Assembly (NCBI GenBank): GCA_013821425.1
Contig: JACDGV010000004.1
Span: forward strand, 1-64,000
Direction of reading: 5' to 3'
Source of the DNA: Nitrosospira sp.
Lineage (GTDB): Bacteria; Pseudomonadota; Gammaproteobacteria; Burkholderiales; Nitrosomonadaceae
Length of the DNA stretch: 64,000 nt
Numbering within the stretch: position 1 is the first letter of the stretch; each line of letters opens with the position of its first letter. Of this stretch, positions 5,746-60,342 are shown piece by piece. The notes beneath the pieces are model-generated. The model saw only the letters and a list, made by a program, of their open reading frames with translations, had not been told where the DNA came from and made no database searches. Position numbers and translations under genes: made by a program.

Positions 5746-7356
5746 TTAGCCGGACATCTCATGCGTTTGGAATACCAGACCGGCGTGCTCTCGCATTCTG
5801 TGGAAACGGATACTTTTCCAGCTTTCCTCGGCAACGCTCAACTCCGCCCCAAAGGCGGCAAGGAAGGCGGGGGCATCGACTACGTCATAGGCGATCCGAT
5901 GGGCATTGATATCGATAAACCGTTTAAGTTCGCGGGGATCCTCGGCGGTGACCCAGCGCGCCAACTGGAACTTGGAGGGGACGAGCCTGGCCTCCACGCC
6001 ATATTCATGCTTGAGCCGGTGCGCTACGACCTCGAACTGCAGGACACCCACGGCGCCCAGCAGTAAAGTACTGCTCGCATGGGGCCGGAACACCTGGATT
6101 GCGCCCTCCTCACCTAACTGGGCGAGTCCCAGTTTGAGTTGCTTGCTGCGCATCGGGTCCGCGATCTCGACCGCCTGAAAGATTTCCGGTGCAAAGAACG
6201 GCAAGCCTGTAAACTGCAACCGCTCGCCTTCCGTCAGCGTGTCCCCGAGTTGCAGCGTTCCATGGTTGGGAATGCCGATAATATCGCCAGGATAAGCAGT
6301 GTCAAGCAAATCGCGCCGCTGCGAGAGAAAAGACACGACGCCATTGGTCCGGATGTCCTTATCGTTACGCACGATCTTGAGGTTCATGCCGCGCACGAAC
6401 CGGCCTGAACAGATCCGGACGAAAGCAATGCGATCCCGATGCGCGGGATTCATATTGGCCTGAATCTTGAACACCACTCCTGAAACCTTCGGCTCATCTG
6501 GCTGCACCTCCCGTTGCAACGCCGCACGAGATCCCGGCGGCGGAGCAAGATCAACCAGCGCATCAAGCACCTCGCGCACGCCGAAGTTGTTGATGGCTGA
6601 GCCAAAAAAAACCGGAGTCTGCATGCCGGCGAGGAAAGCCGCCTGACTGAATGCCGGCGAAGCACCTCGTATCAGTTCGATTTCCTGCCGCACGTTGACA
6701 GCATTGTTCCCGAAGCGCAGCGTGATCTCCGGATTGTCCAGACCGTCGATGATTTCGTCTCCGTCATCCAACCTGTCCGATCCGGGGCGAAAAACGCGCA
6801 TTCTGTTGCGCCGCAAGTCGAATACTCCACGGAAACCGCGGCCCATGCCTACTGGCCAGGTAAAAGGCACGGCTGCCATGTGAAGCGCTCGTTCGATCTC
6901 ATCGAGAAGGTCGAGGGGTTCGCGGACCTCGCGGTCCATCTTGTTGACGAACGTAAGTATGGGAGTGTTACGCGCACGACATACGTCAAGCAGGCGTAAC
7001 GTCTGAGCCTCTACACCGTTGGCGGCATCAATTACCATCAGTGCCGCGTCTACGGCGGTCAGGACCCGATAGGTATCTTCGGAGAAATCCTGGTGGCCCG
7101 GTGTGTCAAGGAGATTGATCACGCAGTCCCCGTACTCGATCTGCATCACGGAACTGGCCACCGAGATGCCGCGCTGTTTCTCTATCTCCATCCAGTCCGA
7201 AGTTGCATGGCGCGTAGCCTTTCGGGCCTTGACGCTGCCCGCTATATGGATGGCTCCCGCAAACAACAGCAGTTTCTCGGTGAGCGTTGTCTTCCCGGCA
7301 TCCGGATGAGATATTATGGCAAAAGTACGACGCCGCGCCACTTCCTTACCGACCAT
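5746..7356 (-). CDS. prfC: Peptide chain release factor 3
   Basis: GTPase motifs ISHPDAGKTTLTEKLL, DTPGHQDF, NKMD. Start at MVGKEVARRRTFAIISHPDAGKTT. Confidence 0.95.
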   Translation of the reverse strand: MVGKEVARRRTFAIISHPDAGKTTLTEKLLLFAGAIHIAGSVKARKATRHATSDWMEIEKQRGISVASSVMQIEYGDCVINLLDTPGHQDFSEDTYRVLTAVDAALMVIDAANGVEAQTLRLLDVCRARNTPILTFVNKMDREVREPLDLLDEIERALHMAAVPFTWPVGMGRGFRGVFDLRRNRMRVFRPGSDRLDDGDEIIDGLDNPEITLRFGNNAVNVRQEIELIRGASPAFSQAAFLAGMQTPVFFGSAINNFGVREVLDALVDLAPPPGSRAALQREVQPDEPKVSGVVFKIQANMNPAHRDRIAFVRICSGRFVRGMNLKIVRNDKDIRTNGVVSFLSQRRDLLDTAYPGDIIGIPNHGTLQLGDTLTEGERLQFTGLPFFAPEIFQAVEIADPMRSKQLKLGLAQLGEEGAIQVFRPHASSTLLLGAVGVLQFEVVAHRLKHEYGVEARLVPSKFQLARWVTAEDPRELKRFIDINAHRIAYDVVDAPAFLAAFGAELSVAEESWKSIRFHRMREHAGLVFQTHEMSG

Positions 7357-7378
7357 ATGAATATTCCTTAAGTTTGTT

Positions 7379-9505
7379 CTAGAAACGCCGGGAATCCGGT
7401 TCCTGAGGATAAAGATAGCAATGCGCCGTGTGTGTTGAACTGAATGCGCTTGTTGCCGGGTAAGTTTCATGGCAGACCGGCATGACGCGAGGGCAGCGTG
7501 GATGAAAGTGGCAGCCCGATGGCGGATTCACCGGTGACGGAAGATCTCCATGAAGGTGAATGATATGACGTGTTGATTCCGGCTCGATTACCGGAACCGC
7601 TGACAGCAAGGCCTGGGTGTACGGATGCCTGGGGGTGGTCAAAACTTCATCCACGGTTCCTCGCTCTACAATTCTTCCCAGATACATCACAGCGACTTCA
7701 TCCGCCAGATACTCCACCACCGAAATATTATGGGTGATGAATAGATAGGCTAGTCCGAGACTGTTCTGCAATTCCCTCAGCAGATTCAGGATCTGGGCTT
7801 GTACCGATACGTCGAGCGCACTGGTTGGCTCGTCACACACGATCAGCTTGGGGTTGACCGCCAGGGCGCGCGCAATCGCAATACGCTGCCGCTGGCCGCC
7901 GGAGAACTCGTGGGGATAACGCCACTTGGTTTCTGCGGGCAACCCGACGCTTTCCAATAACGCATCCACCCGTCTTCGGGTTGAGACCTCGGGTTGCTGC
8001 TCTGCACGATATTCGCCGGTGTCGCCCCCCACCCCGACGTTCAGCGCATTCATTCCCTCTTCGATGATGTCGACGATACGCATGCGCGGATTGAGCGAGG
8101 AATAGGGATCCTGGAATATAAGCTGGAACTCGGCGCGCATCTTTCGCAACCGCTTGCGTTCCAGTCCCACCAGTTCAAGCCCGTTATAGCGCACGCTGCC
8201 TGCCGACGGGGAAACGAGTTGCAGGATGCCCTTGCCTACTGTCGTCTTCCCGCAGCCCGATTCCCCCACCAGCGCCAGAGTCTTTCCCTGGCGAATCTCC
8301 AGTGACACCCCATCCACCGCCTTGACATGCCCCACTACATTTTTGATCAACCCCTTGTGGATGGCAAAGTAGACTTTGAGATCAGTAACCGACAACAGGG
8401 GTGGACTGGAGATTGTACGCCTCTCCCTCTTCAATTCTATCCCCGCCCCAGACTCATCTGCGCGTCCCGGCTTCCGAACTGTCTGTTGAGACTCCTCATC
8501 CCCCGATCCGCGCTCACCGGACCGCCGCAGCAAATCCGGATCAAAAAGATGACATCTTACGTGATGTTCCCCAGCCACAACGGCCCACCCGGGCGCAGCC
8601 TCATGGCATAGCTTGAAGGCATGGTCACAACGGTCCGCGAAACGGCACCCCGCAAATTCGCGCGACAAGGACGGCACGTTTCCGCTAATCGCTGCGAGCC
8701 GCAAACCCTTATGGCGGCTCTCCCTTCCAGGCAGGGAAGCGAGCAGTTTACGCGAATAGGGGTGCGCGGGACCCCGAAAAAACGCTTCTCGCGTTGCTGT
8801 CTCTACCATTTCGCCGGCATACATTATTCCCACGCGATGCGCCATTTGCGCCGCCACGCCGAGATCGTGGGTAATGAGTAGAATCGCCATGCCATCACGT
8901 TGCTGCAAGTCTCGCATAAGGTTTAGCACTTGGGCCTGGATAGTCACGTCCAAGGCCGTGGTGGGCTCATCAGCTATGAGCAGTTCCGGTTCCCCGGCCA
9001 GTGCCATGGCTATCATCATCCTCTGCTTCATGCCGCCTGAAAACTGGAAGGGGTATTCGTTCATCCGACGCGCTGCCTCCGGTATTCCCACCTGATTCAG
9101 GATTGCCCGTATGCGTTCCTGGGCAGCCGCGCCGTGTAGACGGAAATGCCACTGCAACACTTCGCCGATCTGCTCCGCCACCGTCATTACCGGGTTCAGG
9201 CTTAGCATTGGCTCCTGGAAAATCATGCTTATACGCTTACCGCGGATTCCGCGCATGGCGGCTTCCGGCAATAGCAGCAAATCCTCGTTGCCCAGCTTAA
9301 CAGACCCCGCCATGATCTCTCCCGCCTCTGGCAAAAGCCGCATTACTGAAAGAGCGGCCATCGATTTCCCGCAGCCTGATTCTCCCAGTAGCGCGAAGGT
9401 CTCGCCCTTCATGATATTCAGGGTAAGCCCATCCACCGCCCTTACGGGCGCCTCCTCTGCATGGAGTATGGTTTCGAGATCATTGATTTCCAGCACGTAA
9501 CTCAT
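7379..9505 (-). CDS. yejF: Peptide ABC transporter ATP-binding protein with two fused NBDs (YejF/DppD-DppF type)
   Basis: Two copies of Walker A (GESGCGKS, GESGCGKT) and signature (FSGGMKQR, FSGGQRQR), with oligopeptide-type C-terminal Cys motifs. Confidence 0.92.
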   Translation of the reverse strand: MSYVLEINDLETILHAEEAPVRAVDGLTLNIMKGETFALLGESGCGKSMAALSVMRLLPEAGEIMAGSVKLGNEDLLLLPEAAMRGIRGKRISMIFQEPMLSLNPVMTVAEQIGEVLQWHFRLHGAAAQERIRAILNQVGIPEAARRMNEYPFQFSGGMKQRMMIAMALAGEPELLIADEPTTALDVTIQAQVLNLMRDLQQRDGMAILLITHDLGVAAQMAHRVGIMYAGEMVETATREAFFRGPAHPYSRKLLASLPGRESRHKGLRLAAISGNVPSLSREFAGCRFADRCDHAFKLCHEAAPGWAVVAGEHHVRCHLFDPDLLRRSGERGSGDEESQQTVRKPGRADESGAGIELKRERRTISSPPLLSVTDLKVYFAIHKGLIKNVVGHVKAVDGVSLEIRQGKTLALVGESGCGKTTVGKGILQLVSPSAGSVRYNGLELVGLERKRLRKMRAEFQLIFQDPYSSLNPRMRIVDIIEEGMNALNVGVGGDTGEYRAEQQPEVSTRRRVDALLESVGLPAETKWRYPHEFSGGQRQRIAIARALAVNPKLIVCDEPTSALDVSVQAQILNLLRELQNSLGLAYLFITHNISVVEYLADEVAVMYLGRIVERGTVDEVLTTPRHPYTQALLSAVPVIEPESTRHIIHLHGDLPSPVNPPSGCHFHPRCPRVMPVCHETYPATSAFSSTHTAHCYLYPQEPDSRRF

Positions 9506-14506: not shown

Positions 14507-15295
14507 ATGACACTTCTCGCCAATAAGCGCATTCTCATCGCCGGACTGCTCAGTAACCGCTCGATTGCCTATGGCATTGCAAAGGCAATGCATCGAGAAG
14601 GCGCGCAGTTGGCGTTTACGTACCAGGGAGAAGGAGTGCGTGAACGCGTGGGGAAGCTGATATCCGAGTTTGATAGTGATTTGCTGTTTCCATGCGATGT
14701 TTCAAATGATGAGGAAATCGTTCGTTGTTTTGACGACCTGGGAAAGCGATGGGACGGCCTGGATGGCATTGTTCACTCAATCGCTTTCGCGCCCCGCGAA
14801 GCGTTGAACGGGGACTACCTGGAAAACGTTAACCGTGAAGCTTTTCGCATTGCGCACGATGTAAGCTCTTACAGCTTCGCGGCTCTGGCAAAAGCCGGGG
14901 TGCGGCTGATGGAGGGCAGAAATGGGTCGCTTCTGACGCTCACCTACCTGGGTTCCGCAAGGGTCATGCCAAATTACAACGTCATGGGATTGGCCAAAGC
15001 CAGTCTTGAGGCAAATGTGCGATTCATGGCATCAAGCCTCGGGCCCAAGGGCATAAGGGTCAATGCGATTTCCGCCGGACCAATCAAAACCCTGGCAGCG
15101 GCGGGAATTGGCAGCTTCGGTAAACTGTTGAGCTATACTGAAAAGACTGCTCCCCTGAGGCGTAATGTTTCCATCATCGAGGTCGGCAACGTGGCGGCTT
15201 TTCTTTGCAGCGACCTGGCAAGCGGCATTACTGGTGAAATTACATACGTAGATGCAGGATTCAATACGGTTGCCTTTGATGTCAGCGACCCCTGA
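14507..15295 (+). CDS. fabI: Enoyl-[acyl-carrier-protein] reductase (NADH)
   Basis: [56 protein letters not shown]. Confidence 0.96.
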
Positions 15296-53867: not shown

Positions 53868-54470
53868 ATGTCCGTGCTTGTCACTCATCTTGCCCCTGAT
53901 TTTACTAAACCCGCTGTCCTCCCGGATGGCACATTCAATGACACTTTCAATTTTCACAGTGAAATCTCAGGGAGATACGCTGTACTATTTTTTTATCCGC
54001 TGGATTTTACCTTTGTCTGCCCTTCAGAAATCCTTGCCCATTCCCATCGGGCCGAAGAGTTCCGCAAACGCAAAGTGGAAGTTATCGGTGTTTCCGTAGA
54101 CTCCCAGTTCACCCATTATGCGTGGCGCAATACCACGGTAGACAAGGGAGGTATCGGGTCTGTGAATATAACCCTGGTATCCGACGTGGGGGGGGATGTC
54201 ATGCAAGCTTATGGCGTCAGTCATCCGGATCATGTGGCACTACGCGCCTCTTTCCTCATCGACAGAAACGGTGTTGTGCGTCACCAAGTGGTTAACGATC
54301 TACCGCTGGGCCGAGACGTGGACGAAATGCTGCGCATGGTGGACGCGTTGCAATTTCACGAAAGTCACGGCGAAGTATGCCCTGCCGGCTGGAAAGCGGG
54401 GGACGCCGGCATGACGCCGAGTCCGAAGGGTGTCGCCGAATATCTCGGTACTCACGCGTCGAAACTATAA
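53868..54470 (+). CDS. Peroxiredoxin (AhpC/TSA family, two conserved Cys)
   Basis: FYPLDFTFVCPSE peroxidatic Cys, HGEVCPAGW resolving Cys. Confidence 0.94.
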   Translation: MSVLVTHLAPDFTKPAVLPDGTFNDTFNFHSEISGRYAVLFFYPLDFTFVCPSEILAHSHRAEEFRKRKVEVIGVSVDSQFTHYAWRNTTVDKGGIGSVNITLVSDVGGDVMQAYGVSHPDHVALRASFLIDRNGVVRHQVVNDLPLGRDVDEMLRMVDALQFHESHGEVCPAGWKAGDAGMTPSPKGVAEYLGTHASKL

Positions 54471-54592
54471 ACTGCACCTGCCCGGACCATCGCGGGAGAG
54501 GAAAAGCGCGGCTGTGGTGGTTAGGGAGCCCTTAGCCGCGCTATCGATCCCCGCGCCCATTCGCATTTCCTGAAATGGCAAAGGAGAATCTC

Positions 54593-55063
54593 ATGAACTT
54601 CGACAAGGACAAGTCAATCGCGCTGTTGAACAAGATCATGGAACTGGAACTTGCAGGAGTGGTGCGTTATACGCATTATTCATTGATGGTCTACGGCTAT
54701 AACCGCATTCCTGTCGTGGAATGGCTAAAGAAGCAGGCAGAAGAGGGGTTGCTGCACGCCCACCGGGCTGGCGAACTCGTCACTCTGCTGGGTGGGCACC
54801 CTTCACTTGCGATTGGGCCCCTGCTGGAGACGCATCAGAATGACATCGGCGATATCCTCAGAGAATCGCTGGCGCACGAGAGTGAATCGTGTGCGGCCTA
54901 TTACGACCTCCTTGAATTGGCCCAAGGCAAGTCGGTGCTATTGGAGGACTACGCACGGAGCCTTATTGTCGAGGAAGAGATGCATGCCGACGAAGTCAAC
55001 AAAATGCTGCGCCGGACGGGAAGAACAGGAGTATACGAGCCGCCCCAGAGCCCGAGCGCCTAA
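54593..55063 (+). CDS. Ferritin-like / bacterioferritin-family protein
   Basis: Ferritin-like helices: MELELAGVVRYTHYSLMVYG...EEGLLHAHRAGELV...EEEMHADEVNKML; AAGGAG before ATG at 54593. Confidence 0.85.
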   Translation: MNFDKDKSIALLNKIMELELAGVVRYTHYSLMVYGYNRIPVVEWLKKQAEEGLLHAHRAGELVTLLGGHPSLAIGPLLETHQNDIGDILRESLAHESESCAAYYDLLELAQGKSVLLEDYARSLIVEEEMHADEVNKMLRRTGRTGVYEPPQSPSA

Positions 55064-55386
55064 GTCTCTACGTCCCTGGGTCCCTGGAACAGAAGTCTGG
55101 TAGCCTGTTTCCAGGCTAACCGCCTACTCGCCGCCTCGCGCATCGTTATATACCATGCCGCTCAACTGTATCATCAAATCAACCTCACTTTCTTCCTCAT
55201 CCGGGGCTTCGGATTCATAGATCTCCATAAGGGAGCAAAGCGAGCCGACATGAGTCGGATTAAGTGCAGGGGATGGACCGACTGGTCGCGGCGCACACTC
55301 AGCCAGGTTCCCGCTCTCCTGCTTTATGGGAGTAATCATTCTCATACCGTCATGAGCCTCGCGGGGTATCGCACGCTCCCGCAACC

Positions 55387-55575
55387 TTATCCAAACCGCT
55401 TCTTTTTACTTCTGCTGCGCGCTGCGCCGAGGTGGACACATGGCTCAAGATTGACAGCTGGATCTCGTCCTTGCAACGCACCTCCTGGTTGAACGGTTTT
55501 ACCGGCCTTAGGAAAGCCCTTGTTCAGGGCTTCCCTGGATAGCAGCATCGCTAGCACGGGTAGCTGGGATTTCAT
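55387..55575 (-). CDS. Small hypothetical ORF with strong RBS (MKSQLPVLAMLLSREALNKGFPK...), probably disrupted
   Basis: AGGAGGAAATATG start context; signal-like N-terminus runs into a copy of the dispersed repeat. Confidence 0.4.
   Translation of the reverse strand: MKSQLPVLAMLLSREALNKGFPKAGKTVQPGGALQGRDPAVNLEPCVHLGAARSRSKKKRFG
55510..55534. repeat. Palindromic copy of the dispersed repeat
   Basis: TAGGAAAGCCCTTGTTCAGGGCTTCC; minus strand GGAAGCCCTGAACAAGGGCTTTCCTA forms a hairpin. Confidence 0.75.
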
Positions 55576-55756
55576 ATTTCCTCCTGTAGGTGAACAAATA
55601 GCCAAATGTACAGCGGCTTTTTTGCTTGCTCAGGCTACCTCGAATAGATGGCGTTCAGATGACGATTTTATGAAGTTTTTATAATTCGATACAACTTTGC
55701 CGATAATCCGGGTGAATTGCAACGATTGCCGCAAGGCCAAGGCGTACATGGACCAA

Positions 55757-56254
55757 TCAGGCTCCGCGCCTTCTGCTCTGCCTACGTTCGACCGATATCT
55801 GGCTCGGCCTGGAGTATTCGAAAGTTATGGGTTCCAGTAGCGGCCGCTCGCATCCGTCCCGCATCAATGCAGCAGTTTCCCCCAGGGCGATTTCACGCAG
55901 GCGGCAGCGCATGCTCAATTCCCCATTTCCGGATTCGAAAACAGCACAGGTATGTTGAAAGTTTTCACGGCCGGGTTCCTGTCCGTCCCGGGCCACGTGA
56001 GGCCCCACGTTATTCATTACCGCCACGGGCAGATGTGGATAACGTCGCCTGGCCTCCCGTACCCATTGCAGGAGACTCACCTGCTGCTCACAATCATGCA
56101 CGGCGCCATCGACAAGCACTATGTCGTATGCTTCAAGATTCGGTTCAGGGAAATTTTCCAGCGATTTCCGCTCCAGCCTGTGTTTTGATTGCTCAAGCAA
56201 CATTTGCAAAATCCGAGAACTGTCCTGTCTTTCACCAACGAGCAAGATATTCAT
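55757..56254 (-). CDS. Receiver-like (degenerate CheY-like) hypothetical protein downstream of luxI
   Basis: MNILLVGERQDSSRILQMLLEQ...YDIVLVDGAVHDCEQQVSLLQWVREARRRYPHLPVAVMNNVGPH; ATG 1 nt beyond the luxI stop. Confidence 0.65.
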   Translation of the reverse strand: MNILLVGERQDSSRILQMLLEQSKHRLERKSLENFPEPNLEAYDIVLVDGAVHDCEQQVSLLQWVREARRRYPHLPVAVMNNVGPHVARDGQEPGRENFQHTCAVFESGNGELSMRCRLREIALGETAALMRDGCERPLLEPITFEYSRPSQISVERRQSRRRGA

Positions 56255-56255
56255 T

Positions 56256-56870
56256 TTAGGCCGCCTTCCTTTGCACACCCTCAGACAGCGTGCCAAACAA
56301 GGCAAATTCCGTCATGCCATCGATTTCGATATAACATGCCACAGTCAGAACCCGGCCAATTTTTATTGGCGGGCCCAGCCTTGAAATGTTAACACCGAGC
56401 TTGCGTATCAATCTCTCCACAGCAACGGTAGTAACGGTTACATATCGCTTGATTCCGTTATGCCGCGCGAAGCGAAATAAAGTCTGCATCATCTTTACGG
56501 GAATCTCACTGAACCCGAATCCGGCGCTCTCGTATCTCGGCACCATGACGGCGAAGCGGCTCAATTCCCAAATGTCGGGCTGCTGGGGTGCCGGCTGCCC
56601 GTGCAATAGTTGTGGAAAAGTGTCCTTCAACATGTTGGGTCCCGTGGTTGGGAGCAATCGCCAGCAGCCCAGCACTTCATCCTCGTCCCCCTTTGCCAGG
56701 ACATAAACCGGATTGGCGCGATCAAACTCGTCATGTTCCATGCCATTATCCGTGGTAACTTCCCAACCCAACCGGTCATGGAAAACTTCGTGTCTTAGCC
56801 GATACATTCCTGCGGCTGCCCGCTGATCCAGAGAACCATTCCCGTGTTGCGCAAGCATGATCTGTCCCAT
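56256..56870 (-). CDS. Acyl-homoserine-lactone synthase (LuxI family)
   Basis: MYRLRHEVFHDRLGWEV, EHDEFDRANPVYVLA, GCWRLLPTTGPNMLKDTFPQLLHG, WELSRFAV: LuxI-family R/F/W/E/D/D/R/F/E/R pattern. Confidence 0.93.
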   Translation of the reverse strand: MGQIMLAQHGNGSLDQRAAAGMYRLRHEVFHDRLGWEVTTDNGMEHDEFDRANPVYVLAKGDEDEVLGCWRLLPTTGPNMLKDTFPQLLHGQPAPQQPDIWELSRFAVMVPRYESAGFGFSEIPVKMMQTLFRFARHNGIKRYVTVTTVAVERLIRKLGVNISRLGPPIKIGRVLTVACYIEIDGMTEFALFGTLSEGVQRKAA

Positions 56871-56932
56871 TGTTTTGCATCCGTCGTTGGTTTATGACGA
56901 CGCTATGAAACAACGGAACAGCCCCCCCCGAT

Positions 56933-56952
56933 AGCTGTAGAATCTTACAGGG
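56933..56952. promoter_or_regulatory. Candidate lux box upstream of luxI
   Basis: AGCTGTAGAATCTTACAGGG; 16/20 identical to the Vibrio fischeri lux box ACCTGTAGGATCGTACAGGT, 62 nt upstream of the luxI ATG. Confidence 0.8.
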
Positions 56953-57460
56953 GAAAAAGGAAAATACAGGCCGGAACCCTTACAGGAAGCGGGTTCAGCA
57001 CACTAGCACAGAGTCCGAATGTGGACGTTTTTATGAAAAATTGCGGATAAAAAACGGAGTTGACGAGGTCGTTCCAGGGATATGGAACATGGAAAAACCT
57101 TCCGGCCCGAGGGCGAAGCAGGGAAACCGTTCAGAACAAGACGGGGGTGGCTACAAACTGGGCGAACAGCGTGGGCTATGTATACGCACTTTAGGGCGTC
57201 CGCCCACCAGTGTTGGCAGATTGGTGACAGCGCAGCAGCGCGTGCAGTTCGGGGCTTGCCGGGGAGCGACCGCATAGCCCCTTGCACGGAGGCATCAAGT
57301 TGCGGCAGTAAAGAGCACTGGTTTACATCGCGCACCCATGCTCTGCACCCCAAACACGACGCCTACCCGCAGCCTCGGGTGATTTGCTCCATCGGGTGCG
57401 GGCGGCCATTCCTTTCGTTGGTTTTGTTGGGGGATGAGTTATCCGCGTCCTTTCTTCATG

Positions 57461-58453
57461 TCATGGGCGGACGTGCCAGCGCGTGGACATCCCGGCCATC
57501 ATGTGATCGTCGACATGACAGTGCATCAGCCACTCGCCAGTCGAACGCGGGACCATATCGACCGAAGTCATGCTCGCAGGCAATACTTCAACGACATCGG
57601 TGCGCCGTCCACGGTCGAGTACCGTTTGCCCATGCCAATGGATGGTATGGTTGTCGGCTTCATTCCCCAACGCGACGACATGCCAGCGAACGCGCTTCCC
57701 CAGACTTGTTTCATAGCCTTCCAGGTTGCCGAAGATTCGGCCGTTGATCGCGTGCTTCATCCCGCTTTCTTCGCCGTTCTCCTCGTTGAAAATCATGAAG
57801 AGCGCTGTGAATTCCTGATCCACGTCATGCGGCGCAGGGTTAGAAGGGGAACGCGCCATTCCCTTGCGGGTGACGACGATGGTACCCACCAGACCGAGAT
57901 TTTTATCTTCCTCTTCCATCACGTGGGAATGGTAGAGCCAGACTATGGAGGAGGGATCGGCGGGGCCTGGACCTGCGTCTTCATCCGCGACCCAGGTGTA
58001 AGTGTAGGATTTGTTCGGGGGCACGCTCGCACCTTCGCCAGTTCCATCTGCGCCTTCATTGTCCTTGTCGTAGAGCACTCCGTGCGGGTGCATGGACAGG
58101 GGCCTGTCCGTTTTGTTGCGAAAATGAATTCTGATGGTATCTCCCACCTCCGCCCGGATCTGAGGACCCAGAATTCCCATTGATTTGGGCTGGGGCACCT
58201 GTTTGGTATAGCTGCCGTCCGTATAACCGATATAACGGTATTTCGGGTAAATCAGCGTTGCGCCCCACACCCCGAGGCCCGCATGGGAGTCGATCAGGTT
58301 CTTTCCCGATGGGGCGTAATTCCAAGGTGTCTTTTCCGCCGCTATCCAGTATTCCCTTACTGCCGCCTGGGCTGCCTGCACCGGGAACAATACCCAGCAA
58401 GTCATGATAAAAACAGCTATCGCCGTGATTTTGCCTGCATAACCAGAATTCAT
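57461..58453 (-). CDS. Two-domain multicopper oxidase, exported
   Basis: Signal peptide; copper motifs MHPHGV, WLYHSHV, HTIHWHGQ, HCHVDDHMMAGM. Confidence 0.93.
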   Translation of the reverse strand: MNSGYAGKITAIAVFIMTCWVLFPVQAAQAAVREYWIAAEKTPWNYAPSGKNLIDSHAGLGVWGATLIYPKYRYIGYTDGSYTKQVPQPKSMGILGPQIRAEVGDTIRIHFRNKTDRPLSMHPHGVLYDKDNEGADGTGEGASVPPNKSYTYTWVADEDAGPGPADPSSIVWLYHSHVMEEEDKNLGLVGTIVVTRKGMARSPSNPAPHDVDQEFTALFMIFNEENGEESGMKHAINGRIFGNLEGYETSLGKRVRWHVVALGNEADNHTIHWHGQTVLDRGRRTDVVEVLPASMTSVDMVPRSTGEWLMHCHVDDHMMAGMSTRWHVRP

Positions 58454-58570
58454 CTTTGCTCCAAAACCGTTGCTCGGAAAATCTGCCCGAAGAGCCTACA
58501 GTTGCAACACTTGGGCAAGCACGGGGTTGGCCTCACCCGGGCTGTGACCGCGTGCCCGGGTTGCGGTGGC

Positions 58571-59632
58571 TTACAAGGTCGATAAAGGGCTCTTTCCTTG
58601 AACAGGTCTCGCATCCCCTGGCGCTGCGGCCAGTCCGGCCGATGCGGCTAATGCGGCCAGAGTAGCGACACCCTTGTGAAATGTGCGCAAATTGGACCGG
58701 TGAAGCAATACGCAGAGCTTGCCGGAACGCTTGCAGTAGCGCTTTACCGTGAAATAATCATGGTGGTTTATGCAATCGACCGGACAGATCACCATATCGG
58801 TGTGAGCAAGCAGGGCAGGTAGATGGTCTACGCCTGTTCGGGCGCCGCAACGATAGAGGAGCAGGCTCCCGCCGGAAGCTTCGACCATGCGACAGTACTC
58901 GGGGTAGAGCGCAGCGCGCCCGCCTACACACAGGATGCAGCGTCCCGCAAGGTCGAAATCATCCCGAAGGGCGAGCTTCTTTTCGTCACAATTATCGCGG
59001 TCCCAGGCGGACTCTAGGCTGGCTGCGCTGTGAGAGCCCAGGACCTTGACCAGGGGTACCATATCAATCTCGCGTCGGGCCGGGTTTCCTGTGTCCGCGA
59101 GCTTGAGCTCAAGCTTAACGTGCTCCGGCAACTCCCGGTGGCCTTCACGGCCTTCAGCCAACCCCGGTCCGGCGCGCGCGCGCTCTGCTGGCACAAGAGG
59201 GGATTCATTCGAAAATTCCGTGGCGCGCCCTGCCTTGAGCGGCGACGCTTGCGGCGTAAGAATTGCGCTGGGATAGGTGCCGAGAAACCGGCCGAGGAAC
59301 TGGGCGGCTTTTTTTTCCACCAATTCCTGTATGCCGTGGGTAATTGAGTTATAAGCGTTGGGGCGCTTTATACCGCCAGCGGTATCCGTTCCCGGATCAG
59401 ATTCCTGATAAACGGCAATGGCTTTTAGAGTACGAAGGCAATTAAACAGAACCGCAGCAACGTAAGGTGCGTCAGAAATCAGAAAGGGGACAGCGTCGCC
59501 AGAGGCCGCTGAGATTGATAGCTGTTCCACAGCCCATGCTCCGTGATGACAAGTCAGAAAAAAAAGCTGGCTTGCCTTGGGATGGGCTGGCTGGCTAAAA
59601 ATGCCGCTGGCATAGGAGAAACCCAGCGGCAA
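58571..59632 (-). CDS. DUF2325-like domain protein (C-terminal), N-terminus/start uncertain
   Basis: C-terminal GRCILCVGGRAALYPEYCRMVEASGGSLLLYRCGARTGVDHLPALLAHTDMVICPVDCINHHDYFTVKRYCKRSGKLCVLLHRS. The ORF track's start at 59632 is a TTG lying inside a terminator-like hairpin. Confidence 0.75.
   Translation of the reverse strand: MPLGFSYASGIFSQPAHPKASQLFFLTCHHGAWAVEQLSISAASGDAVPFLISDAPYVAAVLFNCLRTLKAIAVYQESDPGTDTAGGIKRPNAYNSITHGIQELVEKKAAQFLGRFLGTYPSAILTPQASPLKAGRATEFSNESPLVPAERARAGPGLAEGREGHRELPEHVKLELKLADTGNPARREIDMVPLVKVLGSHSAASLESAWDRDNCDEKKLALRDDFDLAGRCILCVGGRAALYPEYCRMVEASGGSLLLYRCGARTGVDHLPALLAHTDMVICPVDCINHHDYFTVKRYCKRSGKLCVLLHRSNLRTFHKGVATLAALAASAGLAAAPGDARPVQGKSPLSTL
59596..59630 (-). 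terminator. Rho-independent terminator downstream of bfr
   Basis: Minus strand GCCGCTGG-GTTTCTCCTATG-CCAGCGGC-ATTTTTA: 8-bp perfect stem plus T-run. Confidence 0.75.
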
Positions 59633-59641
59633 CGGATAAAC

Positions 59642-60106
59642 TTACATCTGGCTCTGCAGCCAGTTCTGGATGCCGACTTTCTGCATGACCTGGAGCTGGG
59701 TTTCCAGCCAGTCGATGTGTTTCTCGGTATCTTCCAGTATTTCCTTCAACAGCTCTCGCGACACATAATCCTTTGCCCCTTCGCAAGCGGCAATACCGCC
59801 TAGCAGTGTCTCGCGTGCAGCCAGTTCCAGCCTAAGGTCGCAATCAACGCATTCTTCAGCCTTCTCGCCGATCAGGAGCTTGCCGAGTTCCTGCAGATTG
59901 GGCAATCCCTCCAGAAACAGGATACGCTCGATCAGCGCATCGGCATGTTTCATTTCCTCTATGGACTCGTCGTATTCTTTTTTTCCCAGACCGTCGAAGC
60001 CCCAATTCCTATACATGCGGGCATGAAGGAAATACTGATTGATGGCGGTCAATTCATGTTGCAGTTGGCGGTTGAGCCACTGGATGATGTCTGCGCTGCT
60101 TTTCAT
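59642..60106 (-). CDS. bfr: Bacterioferritin
   Basis: LNRQLQHELTAINQYFLHARMYRNWGFDGLGKKEYDESIEEMKHADALIERILFLEGLPNLQ. Confidence 0.97.
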   Translation of the reverse strand: MKSSADIIQWLNRQLQHELTAINQYFLHARMYRNWGFDGLGKKEYDESIEEMKHADALIERILFLEGLPNLQELGKLLIGEKAEECVDCDLRLELAARETLLGGIAACEGAKDYVSRELLKEILEDTEKHIDWLETQLQVMQKVGIQNWLQSQM

Positions 60107-60108
60107 GT

Positions 60109-60342
60109 TTATGCCTCCTCAGGCGAGATCTCGCGTAGGCGAGTGGGTTTGGGTAGATGATGTTGTGTCGTGGTTTTTTGCATCAGTGCTTTTTCCAGTA
60201 CCTCCTTGGCATGGCAGGCACATATACCGCACTGTTCGCTCACGCCCAGGCAGGTTTTCAAATCCCGCATCCGGTCCGCGCCCTTGTGGACAGCTTCCCG
60301 GATAGCAGTATCGGTTACACCTTTGCAGACACAAATATACAT
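60109..60342 (-). CDS. bfd: Bacterioferritin-associated ferredoxin
   Basis: MYICVCKGVTDTAIREAVHKGA...LGVSEQCGICACHAKEVL: [2Fe-2S] cysteine pattern. Confidence 0.95.
   Translation of the reverse strand: MYICVCKGVTDTAIREAVHKGADRMRDLKTCLGVSEQCGICACHAKEVLEKALMQKTTTQHHLPKPTRLREISPEEA

Follow-up and report, generated by a model that had tools for sequence, protein, structure and literature searches.

The gene lying directly behind luxI in the window (the whole 64,000-nucleotide stretch of Nitrosospira sp. DNA analysed here) encodes a truncated pseudo-receiver, that is, half a REC fold with its phosphorylation site dismantled. Sequence comparison shows that the family to which it belongs is not confined to Nitrosospira and has members in ammonia oxidisers, nitrite oxidisers and other Gammaproteobacteria. 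The distribution of the pair suggests that the gene product, hereafter the partner, is dedicated to the AHL synthesis machinery and has so far gone without a name, and we consider it about an even chance that this protein is dedicated to LuxI and tunes AHL synthesis by direct contact, a mechanism that we infer.

The partner gene (55757..56254, minus strand) is an ORF of 165 aa, present behind luxI in 27/27 related genomes that have a close luxI. The neighbouring luxI (56256..56870, minus strand) specifies a product of 204 aa, P0002, a true AHL synthase by its match to PF00765 (E=9.7e-39). The ATG of the partner is at 56254-56252 and the luxI stop codon TAA at 56258-56256, leaving 1 base between them, so the preliminary description, which placed the start 1 nt past the luxI stop, was accurate on this point. 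A Shine-Dalgarno-like AGGAAGG (56264..56270, minus strand), recognised by its sequence, is embedded in the luxI 3' end, 9 nt before the partner ATG, and purine-rich tracts lie ahead of most homologous partner starts. With its TAA plus one base and no overlap, the window strain is an exception within the genus, whereas luxI and the partner gene overlap as ATGA or GTGA in its 22 other genomes, named Nitrosospira and Nitrosovibrio in GTDB records.

The linkage of the two genes was assessed in 101 genomes, the strain's own plus 100 relatives. A close luxI was found in 27 of them and the same 27 carry the partner behind it, neither gene occurring without the other; the partner is absent from the four genomes of this sample that possess a distant luxI (27-43% identity). 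In Candidatus Nitrotoga, a genus assigned through locus L077, which encodes the same protein sequence as L118, the partner starts where luxI ends in all 12 genomes having it (12/12), and the same is true of G189, which belongs to a further family. Nitrotoga, genus g2 and G189 share the gene order luxR-luxI-partner. In Nitrosospira, luxR is about 29 kb from luxI and the partner remains at luxI, which argues that it is tied to the synthase and not to the receptor. The coupling of the partner to luxI is thus universal across the lineages seen and independent of the position of luxR. In the genome of the window strain, just one LuxR with an autoinducer-binding domain was found; its gene (G000:C7:85366-85803) is about 29 kb from luxI, and a similar separation was noted in most other Nitrosospira.

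An 18-mer palindrome, CCTGTAAGATTCTACAGC (56934..56951, minus strand), which we take to be a lux box by its resemblance to such sites, is located upstream of luxI, 63 nt from its start, with 0 mismatches, for 0.27 chance matches expected at up to 3 mismatches. A site of this type upstream of luxI is conserved across Nitrosospira, g2 and several Nitrotoga loci, suggesting, as far as sequence can indicate, that luxI and the partner gene may be switched on together by LuxR. A second lux-box-like palindrome of the window, GATGTAAGCTCTTACAGC (14858-14875), differs from the Nitrosospira luxI box by 3 mismatches and is far from luxI; it is a possible further LuxR target. The luxI locus itself stands amid oxidative-stress and iron genes (53868-60342), encoding a 1-Cys peroxiredoxin, a pair of ferritin-like proteins, a multicopper oxidase, a BFD-like [2Fe-2S] protein and a DUF2325 protein. 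At L077 (Ca. Nitrotoga sp. M5), the partner gene is followed by a large PAS-GGDEF-EAL-looking ORF (6691-8508), which might connect the locus to c-di-GMP.

Seven more distant loci (L157-L163), in six GTDB families besides the window's order, came to light only when the frames following luxI were read. Their LuxI proteins are 41-47% identical and are followed by ORFs of 125-153 aa that overlap luxI as ATGA and end in [FLV]EYxxP. These distant members have changed fast in sequence (about 20% identity). A profile built from them aligned with the nitrifier profile over 133 columns (hhalign E=4e-8, 95%). We propose to define the family, which we call LuxI-coupled FEY pseudo-receivers, by a start within a few nucleotides of the luxI stop, a REC-like N-terminus and a C-terminal [FLV]EY, features that the window protein displays. 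No Pfam family covers the partner or its distant members. A class-wide profile search gave weak matches, which lay mostly over the REC-like half within longer open frames, and did not recover the distant family. Two short ORFs from the window's order, located at or just behind luxI (L138 2074-2475 and L141 1010-1429, in G202/G382), have a receiver-like start and carry FQD in place of FEY; they look similar by eye, but hhalign gave a non-significant E=0.17 and they were not counted as members. A viral, phage or plasmid origin was rejected, as searches of such sequences yielded no true relatives, the plasmid matches shown being annotated as ordinary response regulators. Acidithiobacillus orf3 was also dropped as a relative, since it sits between afeI and afeR and not behind afeI.

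On a LuxI tree of 58 rows, the partner label requires 4 changes, against a shuffled mean of 19.2. RsaM is encoded upstream of luxI at 14 loci, largely from one LuxI clade that is separate from those with the partner, and the partner occurs at none of them (0/14). A LuxI subclade of the window's own order (L131-L137, L139, L140, L142, L144) has neither partner nor RsaM, which implies that LuxI can do without the partner. The simplest reading of this long-branched tree would tentatively be an old association of LuxI with the partner, followed by loss in the same-order subclade.

RsaM (PF16245, DUF4902) is among the closest known systems. It is a quorum-sensing repressor of AHL synthesis and, like the partner, it is small, restricted to luxI/luxR loci and adjacent to luxI, with no DNA-binding motif seen. 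However, RsaM is as a rule encoded upstream of luxI by a gene of its own, and it folds into a five-stranded antiparallel sheet that wraps around two helices (PMC10710839), whereas the partner is REC-like and its gene follows luxI, in most cases with an overlap. The two proteins share no sequence match, and membership of the RsaM family was ruled out because no partner member scanned matched PF16245 at E<=1, while a luxI neighbour from the outgroup did so at 1.2e-29. RsaL and TraM are likewise small and encoded at AHL loci, but the first is an HTH DNA binder and the second binds TraR (PMC3386692), whereas the partner has no Pfam match.

These small luxI-linked proteins, RsaM, RsaL and TraM, act on transcription or on LuxR (PMC10710839, PMC3386692), and the partner could do the same, restraining LuxR or luxI transcription in the manner of RsaM or TraM and leaving LuxI untouched, with the coupling only setting its dose. 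That the partner and RsaM never co-occur at the sampled loci, and that nearly every nitrifier genome carrying the partner also has a LuxR, would fit such a receptor-side action. We nevertheless regard it as unlikely, though the most serious of the alternatives, since the partner of Nitrosospira has stayed with luxI and not with the remote luxR, and since its coupling is to the stop codon of luxI in all lineages observed.

The N-terminal half of the partner (residues 1-84; 56003..56254, minus strand) is predicted to adopt a REC-like beta1-alpha1-beta2-beta3-alpha3-beta4 arrangement. The family profile A4 matched CheY at E=2.8e-4 over these residues, along with many other receivers, although Pfam Response_reg (PF00072) was reached by no single partner sequence scanned. 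In the AF2 model, residues 1-84 form a block with pLDDT of 71-87 and the C-terminal half is of low confidence, and receivers were first or among the first of the Foldseek matches (CtrA receiver 9e-4, FleR 1.5e-3). The CheY-like core of the preliminary description is thus recovered both by the profile match and by AlphaFold plus Foldseek, with REC as the best-ranked fold, and its idea of a degenerate receiver paired directly with an AHL synthase gains support from this ranking and from a luxI linkage that is universal in the clade. Some weak Flavodoxin_5 matches (best 4.9e-5) and matches to general Rossmann-like folds might instead suggest that the partner binds or modifies AHL or another small molecule and feeds back to LuxI. 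We find this improbable: the two fold searches and the PDB profile search all rank REC above flavodoxin, no enzyme motif was seen and the core comprises only about 84 residues. The flavodoxin reading itself was discarded on the same ranking and the weakness of the Pfam matches.

The resemblance to CheY/REC (PF00072) and to atypical pseudo-receivers extends to this core and to Asp49 (56108..56110, minus strand), which aligns with the CheY phospho-acceptor Asp, but the other phosphorylation residues are missing and a conserved non-REC block containing FEY takes the place of the second half of the fold. The CheY Asp-Asp pair aligns with G7-E8 of the window protein, so the absence of the acidic pair after beta-1, already pointed out from the sequence, holds; position 7 is acidic in no homologue, and position 8 carries E/D in the majority of nitrifier homologues but in neither G189 nor the distant members. 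Two further losses had gone unmentioned: the beta-4 T/S site is N81 in nearly all nitrifier members (S in one, T only in G189), and there is no beta-5 Lys in the predicted beta5 region (103-108). The column counts show that Asp49 is kept in all nitrifier homologues and in G189; its conservation is not family-wide, since E, Q or P replaces it in 4/7 distant members. It is because of these replacements, together with the missing acidic pair, T/S and Lys, that we describe the partner as a truncated pseudo-receiver.

The preliminary description had also suggested that the protein might connect quorum sensing to a phosphorelay. For a working phospho-receiver linked to a histidine kinase or phosphorelay speak the REC-like fold, the invariance of Asp49 within the nitrifier clade and the frequent E/D at position 8 there. 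Against it, the first acid, the T/S of beta-4 and the Lys of beta-5 are gone, the distant members that have lost Asp49 have kept the C-terminal motif and beta4 is followed by a variable linker. The proposal is therefore left unsupported; we rejected it on the residue counts and judge it quite improbable.

The C-terminus is strongly conserved and is not part of a REC fold, a feature that the preliminary description did not report. The conserved block (residues 102-149; 55808..55951, minus strand) contains CG..., RCRLxExAxxETxA... and FEY among its invariant columns. The FEY motif (residues 145-147; 55814..55822, minus strand) is common to the distant members, and in alignments with them E-Y is invariant and F nearly so. 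Over the full set A4, the invariant columns are M1, L4, D44, G111, E146 and Y147. All seven distant homologues (7/7) end in [FLV]EYxxP, with a probability of 1e-4 to 1e-3 each when every protein was shuffled and the motif scored near the C-terminus, a motif that was picked after being seen. At L165 (G782), labelled partner in the LuxI tree and left out of the seven distant loci, a 75-aa ORF (2224-2451 on the reverse complement of the locus) begins shortly after a distant luxI, which it does not overlap; it lacks the receiver-like half, where two CxxC pairs stand instead, and keeps the tail LEYHMPCNKK, hinting that the functional element is the tail.

Among 23 Nitrosospira species, the median dN/dS is 0.07 for residues 1-84, 0.07 for residues 102-149 and 0.66 for the linker (residues 85-101), values that are approximate because dS is near saturation. 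Given the low dN/dS of the two conserved blocks, the ORF is a real gene under strong purifying selection in both, with a weakly constrained linker. A selfish or neutral passenger using the luxI ribosome, as the fast change among the distant members might suggest, is highly improbable in view of this constraint and of the retention of the gene over many families with its start coupling and end motif conserved.

We thus return to the partner as a protein dedicated to LuxI. In the proposed mechanism, luxI and the partner gene would be co-transcribed, probably from the LuxR-responsive lux box, and the partner would be translated off the luxI stop codon, which should yield both proteins together in matched amounts. 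The partner would then most likely bind LuxI or the LuxI-acyl-ACP complex via its REC-like surface and/or its FEY tail and tune the amount of AHL or the choice of acyl chain. The matched translation, the retention at luxI, the dismantled phospho-site and the conserved tail all argue for a protein-protein role at the synthase. Modulation of signal synthesis, an idea already put forward from the sequence, seems the best remaining reading. As for its direction, we lean towards a restraint of AHL output by analogy, because the partner occupies the niche filled by RsaM at other luxI loci. Gao et al. are said to have found in 2014 that NmuI of N. multiformis makes C14/3-oxo-C14-AHL when alone in E. 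coli, in which case the partner would not be essential for catalysis. A bolder proposal, which we consider possible but rather doubtful, is that the AHL synthases of a whole gammaproteobacterial branch are two-protein systems, made up of LuxI and a closely linked pseudo-receiver whose FEY tail docks on it and sets the yield or the acyl chain, and that AHL profiles obtained in E. coli with LuxI on its own give a false picture of the native signal.

Our literature search, outside of which fell the two most relevant papers, found no description of the partner; an earlier remark on the downstream ORF is possible. The partner would be a small luxI-locus regulator like RsaM, RsaL and TraM in kind, with a new structure and a new coupling. 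LuxI enzymes are generally treated as stand-alone, and in nitrifiers the presence of a synthase gene is reportedly no assurance that AHL is made. In N. multiformis, the C14 forms reportedly come from NmuI in E. coli and C10 from native cultures. For the same species, C10-, C14- and 3OC14-HSL are listed together in the table of a published paper (PMC9095614). The partner could explain why the chain lengths differ between reports, as could the acyl-ACP pools of the host. It might bear on the puzzle of nitrifier AHLs, on both their chain lengths and the presence of a synthase gene without assured AHL, and such a partner, widespread and coupled in translation to luxI, would bring a further level of control to the synthase itself.
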